Below, piece after piece: positions 1,886 to 12,195 of a stretch of DNA of 34,820 nt. Source of the stretch: an uncultured Acidimicrobiaceae bacterium (GTDB lineage: Bacteria > Actinomycetota > Acidimicrobiia > Acidimicrobiales > Ilumatobacteraceae); contig CAIXHI010000501.1 in NCBI GenBank assembly GCA_903919215.1, positions 1-34,820 on the forward strand, read 5' to 3'. Positions within the stretch are counted from its first letter, which is position 1; the number at the start of each line of letters is the position of its first letter. The translations under genes and the position numbers were made by a program. The notes beneath the pieces were generated by a model. The model worked only from the letters and a program-made list of their open reading frames with translations. It made no database searches and had not been told where the DNA came from.

Positions 1886-2734
1886 TCAGACGTTGGGGAT
1901 CATCTGCATGATCTCCACGACCGCGTCAGCATGCACTCTGGCCTGCTCCGCAGTCAGCGTCGCACCCAGTTCGATGATGAACGACATCGCCTCGGGCACC
2001 TTCTTGCGCACCCACGTGGCCGCCACACCCGTGTACTTCCCGCCGGTGACCGACACGTAATCCAGCCCCGTGAGTTGCGCGTACCGTTGACGCAGCGGCC
2101 CATCGCGCCCGGTGGTTGGACCCACCGTGTGCGCATCCTGGTGATACCAGAGTGTGAGCGTTGGATGGATCTGCAAAGCAAATGCCATGAAGGCCTGCGT
2201 CTCGGGTTCGCTCGCCGGACCACTCCCGCTGTACTGCCATTCACCAGGCCGTGCGATAGCCGTCCAGTCATGCGGAAAGTTGCGGTTCAGATCGACCTGG
2301 TTGCCGTTGCCGCGCACGTCGTTGGCCAGGCCATCCGGGTTGATCGCTGGCAGCAGCCACAGGTCGTAACCGTCCGGCAACGCCATGGTGCGCAGGTCAT
2401 CGAGGATCGCCAGCCCATCGTGCTCATTACCGTGGATGACGCCGACCACCAACACCACGATGCCTCCCGGAGTGCCCCGGTGGTACGCGGTGATCGGTCG
2501 CCCTTGGGCCGACGTACCGATCGTCGCTTCGCCGAGTACTCCCGGAATCGTGCTGGTCGTCGTCGCTGCACTCGTGGTCGCGGCCACGGTGGAGGTCGTC
2601 GATGTCGATGTCGTCGATGTCGATGTCGATGTCGTCGAAGTCGATGTCGGCGTCGCCGCGACGCCTCCCGACGTGGTGGTGCTGCACCCAGCGACCAACG
2701 CCACGACCAGCATGACGGAGGCTGCGCGCGTCAC
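1886..2734 (-). CDS. secreted M14-type zinc carboxypeptidase (lipoprotein-like N terminus, Thr/Ser-rich linker)
   Basis: VVALVAGCS lipobox-like signal, TSTSTTSTSTTS linker, then GRPITAYHRG...VVGVIHGNEHDG (HxxE), LLPAINPDGLANDVRGNGNQVDLNRNFP, consistent with M14 carboxypeptidases. Confidence 0.85.
   Translation of the reverse strand: MTRAASVMLVVALVAGCSTTTSGGVAATPTSTSTTSTSTSTTSTSTTSTVAATTSAATTTSTIPGVLGEATIGTSAQGRPITAYHRGTPGGIVVLVVGVIHGNEHDGLAILDDLRTMALPDGYDLWLLPAINPDGLANDVRGNGNQVDLNRNFPHDWTAIARPGEWQYSGSGPASEPETQAFMAFALQIHPTLTLWYHQDAHTVGPTTGRDGPLRQRYAQLTGLDYVSVTGGKYTGVAATWVRKKVPEAMSFIIELGATLTAEQARVHADAVVEIMQMIPNV
2595..2656. repeat. GTCGAT/GTC short-period repeat in the M14 carboxypeptidase linker
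   Basis: gtcgtcgatgtcgatgtcgtcgatgtcgatgtcgatgtcgtcgaagtcgatgtcggcgtcg; encodes the TSTSTTSTSTSTTS linker on the minus strand. Confidence 0.9.
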
Positions 2735-3189
2735 GATTCCTGCAGCTTCTTGAGCAACACCAGCTCCCGCTGGAAGTCGGCGGCAGCGTCGAAGCCTTTG
2801 TACACACTGGCAAAGCGCAGATAGGCGACCTCGTCGAGCCGCCGCAGACGATCGAGCACCTCGACGCCAATCAGTTGTGCCGGAACTTCCGGACCCTGCA
2901 GGCGCACTTCGTCCTCGACGGCCTCTCCGAGGTGATCGATCTGCTCCGTCGTCACCGGGCGGCCCTTACACGCGGCAGTCACCCCGGCGACGAGTTTGCT
3001 GCGGTCGAACGGCTCGCGCTGCCCGTTGCTCTTCACGACAGTGAGCGGCACCTCTTCGGCGCGTTCGTAGGTGGTGAAGCGATGGGTGCAGGCCACGCAC
3101 GACCGTCGCCGACGAATGGTGGTTCCCTCTTCGGCCTCGCGCGAATCGATCACTTTTGTGTCGTCCGCCAAACATTTCGGGCACCGCAT
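2731..3189 (-). CDS. nrdR: transcriptional repressor NrdR
   Basis: MRCPKCLADDTKVIDSREAEEGTTIRRRRSCVACTHRFTTYERAEEVPLTVVKSNGQREPFDRSKL: NrdR zinc ribbon and ATP-cone; overlaps the next gene by 4 bp. Confidence 0.97.
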   Translation of the reverse strand: MRCPKCLADDTKVIDSREAEEGTTIRRRRSCVACTHRFTTYERAEEVPLTVVKSNGQREPFDRSKLVAGVTAACKGRPVTTEQIDHLGEAVEDEVRLQGPEVPAQLIGVEVLDRLRRLDEVAYLRFASVYKGFDAAADFQRELVLLKKLQES

Positions 3190-3234: not shown

Positions 3235-3624
3235 TCACGGCAACGTGATCGCTTGGCCGATCTGAACGGAGGAACCGTGGTTGACCGACATGAGCGCATC
3301 GAGGTAATCGGCCTGGGAGTACTGATCGTGGAACCGCTGCGCAATGGACCACAGCGTGTCGCCGGACTGCGCCACGTACACGTGCGCGGCGTGTGCCGGG
3401 CGAACCGTGGAGGCGGAGGCAGGATCGCCCCCACGGTTCGCCAGGACGCTGCCGGCGCCGAGCCATACGACGACGACGATGGTGACGAGCACCAACGACA
3501 CCAGGAGGCGTCGGCGCACGAAGAGCTCCACGCTCGGGCGGCCGGCGGCCATCCGCGGCGGAACGACCACCGTGTACGGAACGACCACCGTGTACGGAGC
3601 GAGATTTGCTGCCGTGGTTGCCAT
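3235..3624 (-). CDS. membrane-anchored LysM-domain protein divergent from lexA (candidate SOS-induced cell-division regulator)
   Basis: 129 aa; TM segment LLVSLVLVTIVVVVWLGAG followed by YVAQSGDTLWSIAQRFH (LysM). Position next to lexA matches mycobacterial Rv2719c and Bacillus yneA. Confidence 0.85.
   Translation of the reverse strand: MATTAANLAPYTVVVPYTVVVPPRMAAGRPSVELFVRRRLLVSLVLVTIVVVVWLGAGSVLANRGGDPASASTVRPAHAAHVYVAQSGDTLWSIAQRFHDQYSQADYLDALMSVNHGSSVQIGQAITLP
3560..3595. repeat. perfect 2 x 18-bp tandem duplication in the LysM gene 5' region
   Basis: GGAACGACCACCGTGTAC twice in a row, encoding YTVVVPYTVVVP on the minus strand. Confidence 0.95.
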
Positions 3625-3681
3625 GGTGTCGATGTCCTTCCGGTGCCTGAGGGCCCAAGTGTGGGTGGAGCGCCGTCCGAC

Positions 3682-3801
3682 CGAACAGGTGTTGGTCGAA
3701 CAACTGTTCGCAGTCTGGCCGAACAGCCGTTCGATGTCAACCTCTGGGCGAACATTTGTTGCACGAACGGGTGTTTGACCGATTCCCCGAACGCGTGTAC
3801 G
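3682..3801. promoter_or_regulatory. cluster of six LexA (SOS) box-like operators between the LysM gene and lexA
   Basis: Consensus CGAAC-N4-GTTCG: 3682 CGAACAGGTGTTGG (9/10), 3697 CGAACAACTGTTCG (10/10), 3720 CGAACAGCCGTTCG (10/10), 3749 CGAACATTTGTTGC (8/10), 3764 CGAACGGGTGTTTG (9/10), 3788 CGAACGCGTGTACG (9/10). Confidence 0.85.
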
Positions 3802-3809
3802 CTGCGCCC

Positions 3810-4439
3810 ATGGCCGAAAAGCTCACCGACCGCCAACGCGGCATCCTCGACATGATCGAAACCAGCATGCGCGAGCGGGGCTATCCCCCCAGCGTGCGTG
3901 AAATCGGTGAGGCCGTTGGCCTCACCTCCCCCTCCACAGTGCACAGCCACCTGGCCACACTGCAGCGGCTCGGTTATCTCAAGCGCGACCCAACCAAGCC
4001 GCGTGCCATCGAGGTGCGCTTCGACCCGTCATCGGGTGCCGCCATCGAGCGCCGCCCGGTGCGCCATGTGCCCCTCGTTGGCGATGTTGCCGCTGGCACC
4101 GACGTGCTGGCACAAGAGAACGTCGAGGAGTTGTTCCCCCTGCCGGAGGACTTCACCGGTACCGGCGACTTGTTCATGCTGCGTGTCCGCGGCGACTCGA
4201 TGATCGAGGTCGGCATCATGGACGGCGACTTCGTGGTTGCCCGCGCACAGACCACCGCGGAGAACGGCGAGATCGTCATCGCCGGCATCCCCGGTGAAGA
4301 GGCGACGGTGAAGACCTATCAGCGCAAGGGCCACACGGTCACGCTGATCCCGTCCAACTCGCGGCTCCAGCCGATGGTGTTCACCGACGGCGAAGTGCAG
4401 ATCTTCGGTCGTGTCGTCACCGTGATGCGCCGCCTCTGA
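3810..4439 (+). CDS. lexA: SOS transcriptional repressor LexA
   Basis: MAEKLTDRQRGILDMIETSMRERGYPPSVREIGEAVGLTSPSTVHSHLATLQRLGYLKRDPTKPRAIEV and C-terminal GDSM peptidase motif. The ORF track begins at an upstream TTG (3756); the ATG at 3810 matches the family start. Confidence 0.97.
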   Translation: MAEKLTDRQRGILDMIETSMRERGYPPSVREIGEAVGLTSPSTVHSHLATLQRLGYLKRDPTKPRAIEVRFDPSSGAAIERRPVRHVPLVGDVAAGTDVLAQENVEELFPLPEDFTGTGDLFMLRVRGDSMIEVGIMDGDFVVARAQTTAENGEIVIAGIPGEEATVKTYQRKGHTVTLIPSNSRLQPMVFTDGEVQIFGRVVTVMRRL

Positions 4440-10936: not shown

Positions 10937-11995
10937 TCAGATTTCGATGGGTTCCTCGTCGGCGGGGGTGAACGCCGGAACTGCCGCGTCGACGCCGATA
11001 CCAGCCTGCACTCGCACCTTCTCGGAGACCTCGACCATGATCTCGGGATTGGCGGCGAGGAACCCCTTGGCGTTCTCGCGACCTTGTCCGAGTTGTTCAC
11101 CGTCGTAGGTGAACCACGCCCCGGATTTCTTGATGATCCCCATGTCGACCGCCATGTCGAGCAGGGAGCCCTCACGGCTGATGCCCTTGCCGTACATGAT
11201 GTCGAACTCGGCCTGGCGGAAGGGCGGTGCCACCTTGTTCTTGACGACCTTCACCCGCGTGCGGTTACCGACGATTTCCGCCCCGTCCTTGATGGACTCG
11301 ATACGGCGGATGTCGAGGCGCACCGAGGCGTAGAACTTCAGCGCACGACCGCCGGGGGTGGTTTCGGGCGAGCCGAACATCACGCCGATCTTCTCGCGCA
11401 ACTGGTTGATGAAGATCATGATCGTGTTGGTGCGGTTGAGGTTGGCGGTGAGCTTGCGCAGCGCCTGACTCATCAGACGGGCTTGGAGACCGACATGGGT
11501 GTCGCCCATCTCGCCCTCGATCTCAGCGCGCGGGGTGAGCGCAGCCACCGAGTCGATGACCACGACATCGAGCGCACCGGAGCGCACCAGCATGTCGGCA
11601 ATCTCCAGCGCCTGCTCACCCGTATCGGGCTGGCTGATCAGGAGCTGATCGATGTCGACACCGATGGCTCGGGCGTACACCGGATCCATCGCGTGCTCAG
11701 CGTCGATGTAGGCGCAGATACCGCCGTTGCGCTGTGCCTCGGCCACGACGTGCATGGCGAGCGTGGACTTACCCGAGGACTCGGGACCGAAGATCTCGAC
11801 GACGCGACCACGGGGCAGACCGCCCACACCGAGTGCGACGTCGAGTGCGAGGGCGCCGGTCTGGATGGCCTCGATGGCCATCGACCCCTTCTCGCCCATC
11901 CGCATAATGGAACCCTTGCCGAACTGCTTGTCGATTGCCGCCAAGGCCACATCGAGTGCCTTGTCCCGGTCGTTACTGCTGCGATCGTTGCTCAC
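10937..11995 (-). CDS. recA: recombinase RecA
   Basis: [96 protein letters not shown] start. Confidence 0.98.
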
Positions 11996-12181
11996 AACCT
12001 GTCTCCGTTCCTGCCATGTTTCGTGCTGCGTGTTCGGCCGGCAGAAGTGCCGACCGAGTGGAATCCGGCAGGTGTGCCTGCCGTGGGGTGCACCGTACGA
12101 AAGGGGTGTGACAGGGTTCCCGAGCGGGAGTCCTGCTACCCGAACCGGGGTGCAGTTGTTCGAACGACACGAGTGTAACTA

Positions 12182-12195
12182 CGAACAGCCGTTCG
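12182..12195. promoter_or_regulatory. LexA/SOS box upstream of recA
   Basis: CGAACAGCCGTTCG, 10/10 to CGAAC-N4-GTTCG and identical to the lexA box at 3720. Confidence 0.85.

Follow-up and report, generated by a model that had tools for sequence, protein, structure and literature searches.

The window analysed here, by which we mean the whole stretch of 34,820 nucleotides, carries a lexA gene at 3810..4439 on the plus strand (start used, ATG 3810), whose 209-residue product has an HTH and an S24 peptidase domain and matches TIGR00498 with 233.7 bits. The VAAG cleavage site, the GDSM serine and the TVK lysine are all retained, as read in the translation, and by its HTH, S24 domain and self-cleavage residues the cognate LexA is canonical. 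A divergent gene at 3235..3624 on the minus strand (ATG at 3624) encodes a protein of 129 residues with a hydrophobic segment followed by a C-terminal LysM domain (PF01476); the N-terminal hydrophobic stretch, picked out by eye in the translation, is LLVSLVLVTIVVVVWLGAG. This LysM gene adjoins both lexA and nrdR (2731..3189, minus strand; TIGR00244), and the order nrdR-LysM-lexA is also that of M. tuberculosis. Near the start of the LysM gene, at about 3560-3600, GGAACGACCACCGTGTAC occurs twice in tandem and encodes PYTVVV twice, and the nearest relative (L002) apparently has one copy of the PYTVVV-coding repeat.

A profile search with the YneA model NF010723 gave a partial match to the LysM protein (E 8.4e-7) at 28.9 bits, below the cut-off of 60, and an equivalog-level match was not reached. 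In a single comparison, the protein was 31% identical to its counterpart in a probable mycobacterial relative (E 1e-5). ChiZ (Rv2719c) is a LysM protein that acts as a negative regulator of division (PMC3989709), and in YneA the membrane segment and the LysM domain are both required (PMC13396833). The LysM protein of the window probably inhibits division as part of the SOS response, in the manner of ChiZ/YneA.

The intergenic region between lexA and the LysM gene is 185 bp long. We scored it for CGAACNNNNGTTCG (CGAAC-N4-GTTCG), the SOS box of the B. subtilis/actinobacterial type, and found box A at 3682..3695 (CGAACAGGTGTTGG, one mismatch), box B at 3697..3710 (CGAACAACTGTTCG, perfect), box C at 3720..3733 (CGAACAGCCGTTCG, perfect), box D at 3749..3762 (CGAACATTTGTTGC, two mismatches), box E at 3764..3777 (CGAACGGGTGTTTG, one mismatch) and box F at 3788..3801 (CGAACGCGTGTACG, one mismatch). 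The left half CGAAC is perfect in all six boxes, the mismatches being confined to the right halves. Start-to-start distances are 15, 23, 29, 15 and 24 bp. All six motifs of the original prediction were re-found at its coordinates, and the two triplets it had described, spaced 15/23 and 15/24 with an offset of 67 bp, were measured as 15/23 and 15/24 with offsets of 67 (A-D), 67 (B-E) and 68 bp (C-F).

The genome is rich in G+C and in CG, which lifts the background for such a motif; 55 matches with up to two mismatches were found in the window, as against 28 expected by chance. Chance or compositional clustering of CGAAC was considered as a source of the array. When the 185-bp region was shuffled 20,000 times with its dinucleotides preserved, the maximum was four boxes with up to two mismatches (reached once) and two boxes with up to one mismatch, compared to six and five, respectively, in the actual sequence. 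No shuffle reached five boxes, and the boxes are kept across genera, so that we regard chance clustering as refuted. The excess of the motif over the shuffles and the retention of the array in relatives also bear out the identification of these motifs as SOS boxes.

No other place in the window had more than two such boxes inside 120 bp. The genome-wide frequency check proposed along with the prediction was run, and it returned 20 perfect sites in 3.59 Mb (512 contigs), two of them in the lexA/LysM intergenic region. Chained boxes, sought by a pattern search, occurred at few places: the lexA locus, one three-box cluster (contig C32), a pair near recA, and isolated pairs on two further contigs (C66 and C229). 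Clustering as at the lexA locus is nearly unique in the genome. The same motif is present at recA, at uvrB, at an imuA/imuB-like locus and at a DEDDh/GIY-YIG nuclease gene, and thus appears to mark the SOS regulon. Upstream of recA (10937-11995, minus strand), the window has a perfect box at 12182-12195 with a weaker neighbour at 12141. The three boxes on contig C32 (13860-13926; L218 2361-2427) lie between the gene for a DEDDh exonuclease/GIY-YIG protein and that for a divergent NYN (YacP-like) protein, and make up the second multi-box SOS promoter of the genome. Another perfect box (contig C75, 12167; L219 2168) is found where a DUF222-HNH gene starts.

The lexA promoter was recognised as a -35 hexamer TTGACC (3775..3780, plus strand), kept across 24 genera, and, 17 bp away, a -10 hexamer TACGCT (3798..3803, plus strand); after a further 6 bp comes the ATG. 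The pattern of a TTGAC-like hexamer, N17, TANNNT, N6/7 and ATG is present in 48 of 50 family members, and the consensus over 24 genera reads cGaACaG.TGTTTGAC........CgaaC...cGTACg.T. Since only 6 bp separate the -10 from the ATG, the lexA mRNA is probably leaderless. A strict sigma-70 consensus scan called neither this promoter nor that of the LysM gene; thus both promoter calls rest on conservation.

Boxes E and F are built into these hexamers. The right half of box E enters the -35: it reads GTTTG in 48/48 anchored family members and supplies TTTGAC (TTTGACC in the window), the box as such being present with up to two mismatches in 44 of the 48. The right half of box F holds the TACG of the -10; box F is present in 42/48 family members, with GTACG in all 42, and supplies TACGNT. 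The six genomes without box F (genera g12, g16 and g17) have a different TANNNT at the same position, which argues that the GTACG mismatch follows the promoter. Promoter bases kept across genera are thus the best account of the mismatches in these two boxes. Box D lies between both promoters, upstream of the lexA -35; it was found with up to two mismatches in 30/48 anchored family members and, having more than two, was counted as absent in the other 18. If 3810 is taken as +1, the three boxes D, E and F would be located at about -61/-48, -46/-33 and -22/-9 of lexA, where bound LexA would be in competition with RNA polymerase for the two hexamers, -35 and -10. Transcription of lexA would then begin at its own ATG, and LexA would repress its own gene.

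On the minus strand, the LysM gene has a -35 hexamer TTGACA (3735..3740) and, after a 17-bp spacer, a -10 hexamer CAGACT (3712..3717); the pattern TTGAC-N17/18-CANNCT is conserved in 21/50 family members. Box C lies within the spacer, box B spans the predicted transcription start at about 3705, and box A falls within the predicted transcript, which would place C, B and A at about -28/-15, -5/+9 and +11/+24. LexA bound to these boxes may block both polymerase binding and early elongation on the LysM gene. Judged by position, each promoter has three boxes that overlap or adjoin it, in agreement with the proposal that the array is placed to control lexA as well as the LysM gene. Control of the LysM promoter by the RecA-independent PafBC was also considered, without a hit: the PafBC-type motif TGTCRG-N8/12-TANNNT was absent from positions 3601-3820 of the window. 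The same pattern was present in two probable mycobacterial relatives (L195 and L206), which have four boxes along with it, like the description of M. tuberculosis.

The near-identical spacings of the two triplets (15/23 and 15/24) and their offsets of 67, 67 and 68 bp would suit a 67-bp tandem duplication, and the triplet had originally been taken as duplicated as a unit. That part of the prediction was not supported, as no match was found outside the box cores. Neither the linkers (9 bp and 10 bp) nor the N4 centres agree between the triplets, the flanks of B-E and C-F are no closer than those of unrelated pairs, and the likeness of the A-D flanks is inflated by the box that follows. The triplets are also seated differently, that of lexA beginning ahead of the -35 and reaching the -10, and that of the LysM gene beginning in the -35/-10 spacer and ending beyond the start. 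In relatives the spacing of the LysM triplet drifts (14-15 / 23-27), the B-C distance ranging from 23 to 27 in close relatives, whereas E-F is mostly 24, as would be expected if the 17-bp spacer between -35 and -10 holds it there. Tandem duplication is thus very improbable, and we rejected it.

Among the 25 closest named relatives, six boxes within 200 bp are present in 20, mostly with D-E at 15 and E-F at 24. Allowing two mismatches, box A occurs in all three genomes of the genus with a lexA match, as well as in genera g14, g18 and g21. Boxes A, D, E and F, whose conservation in close relatives had been set beforehand as a refutation test, were kept by most of these. Over seven distinct sequences of equal spacing, which are mutually related, conservation was 96% in box cores, 87% at promoter-only positions and 72% elsewhere. 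Counting boxes with up to two mismatches over 330 bp, we found at least six in 22/50 and at least four in 47/50 genomes of the Ilumatobacteraceae. Six boxes were present in one of 76 genomes from the rest of the class Acidimicrobiia, which usually have three to five, most commonly four, and in none of 54 sampled from the rest of the phylum (range 1-5). The LexA tree is weakly supported at its base; hence gains and losses were not counted and the tree does not decide if the family ancestor had six boxes. The largest array, in a genome of genus g19 (G019, locus L020), comprises eight non-overlapping boxes from 153 to 9 bp upstream of lexA (about 145 bp) at spacings of 15-14-30-15-18-15-24, while shuffles gave a maximum of four. 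Elsewhere in the class, family f17 (genus g50) has small genomes of about 1 Mb with a distant LexA (34-39% identity), most of them with a second S24-like match.

Not all six boxes need be operators in their own right. Possibly, though we hold it unlikely, only B, C, E and F act, with A and D being weak or alternative registers that raise the local concentration of LexA, or sites in decay. A and D do carry more mismatches than B and C; A is missing in genera g2, g25, g22, g6 and g4, and D in g2 and g22; and four boxes are what other genomes of the class most often have. Most close relatives, however, keep D and A at fixed offsets of 14-15 bp while the linkers diverge.

These offsets raise the question of cooperativity. 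LexA dimers on the 15-bp pairs (A/B and D/E) might stabilise each other and assemble in a ladder-like manner, so that the response would be steep or proceed in steps. Pairs 14-15 bp apart are found in both triplets and again across many genera, the family has hardly any spacings of 16-22 bp, and the eight-box relative of genus g19 has several such close pairs. A distance of 15 bp corresponds to 1.43 turns, or about 154 degrees, which would put paired dimers on nearly opposite faces of the DNA. Recurrence of the pair is, however, partly explained by shared descent, and the close pair elsewhere in the class is usually 17 bp. Bacillus LexA filled each of two adjacent sites independently of the other, and no doubly bound form appeared (PMC4551915); in E. 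coli, the Hill coefficient of the lexA promoter fell from 1.5 to 1.2 when three boxes were added (PMC5152588). With Bacillus LexA, a footprint of 18-20 bp is expected per dimer (PMC4551915), and since the 15-bp spacing is shorter, A and B, or D and E, might not be occupied together. Cooperative assembly is thus rather doubtful. Its fullest form, in which all six boxes are filled together and the 15-bp pairs act as cooperative units on opposite faces, unlike Bacillus LexA, appears improbable; if true, lexA and the division brake of the Ilumatobacteraceae would be switched sharply, or in a set order, by a multi-dimer LexA complex.

Taken together, the data favour, with a probability of roughly 0.85, a bidirectional promoter under LexA repression, in which each gene has a three-box operator of its own, D/E/F on lexA and C/B/A on the LysM gene. 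Against this model speak the strict sigma-70 scan, which made no call, the 15-bp pairs, which are tighter than the expected Bacillus footprint, and box D, with its two mismatches and its absence from 18 of 48 relatives. LexA control of both genes, the core of this model, is likely; that three boxes each provide tight, box-by-box repression without strong cooperativity is our best guess and much less certain. Upon DNA damage, RecA would trigger self-cleavage of LexA and both promoters would open, the membrane LysM protein delaying septation while fresh LexA resets the switch. The boxes with their conservation, the conserved hexamers and their spacing, the gene order and the retained cleavage and catalytic residues of LexA are direct observations; from these we infer LexA binding, the transcription starts, the order of derepression and the inhibition of division. 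Box mismatches that coincide with -35 and -10 elements, and a box number that varies widely in one family, make this operator series suited to testing how number and spacing of LexA sites shape the SOS response in strength and order.

We found no earlier description of a six-box or tandem-box array, or of an SOS switch in Acidimicrobiia, in the open-licence literature. The closest known system is lexA-Rv2719c (chiZ) of M. tuberculosis, which likewise has a divergent promoter with several LexA boxes common to lexA and a LysM division regulator; the original prediction had overlooked this precedent. In the account of it in PMC8151990 (citing Dullaghan, Brooks and Davis 2002), four SOS boxes lie upstream of lexA, one acting on lexA and three on the Rv2719c side, whereas the window has six, three per promoter by position. 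The Rv2719c promoter also takes PafBC, a type of motif that the intergenic region of the window lacks. The lexA-yneA region of Bacillus subtilis has the same CGAACN4GTTCG boxes and, also near lexA, an SOS-induced transmembrane-LysM division inhibitor, to which the LysM protein of the window is similar only in part and below the YneA cut-off. In Corynebacterium glutamicum, the SOS-induced division suppressor gene divS adjoins lexA in parallel to the arrangement in the window, although DivS reportedly shows no significant homology to YneA (PMC3989709). The lexA promoter of E. coli is likewise under negative autoregulation by more than a single SOS box; its boxes, unlike those of the window, number two and are of another sequence type. 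With the four-box precedent of M. tuberculosis and the LysM proteins ChiZ and YneA, the locus can be placed as a variant of a known arrangement. The host is a freshwater-type actinobacterium. The lexA-LysM-nrdR arrangement, best known from mycobacteria, is extended to another class of the phylum. The six-box array is a real, conserved and more elaborate version of the four-site arrangement of M. tuberculosis.
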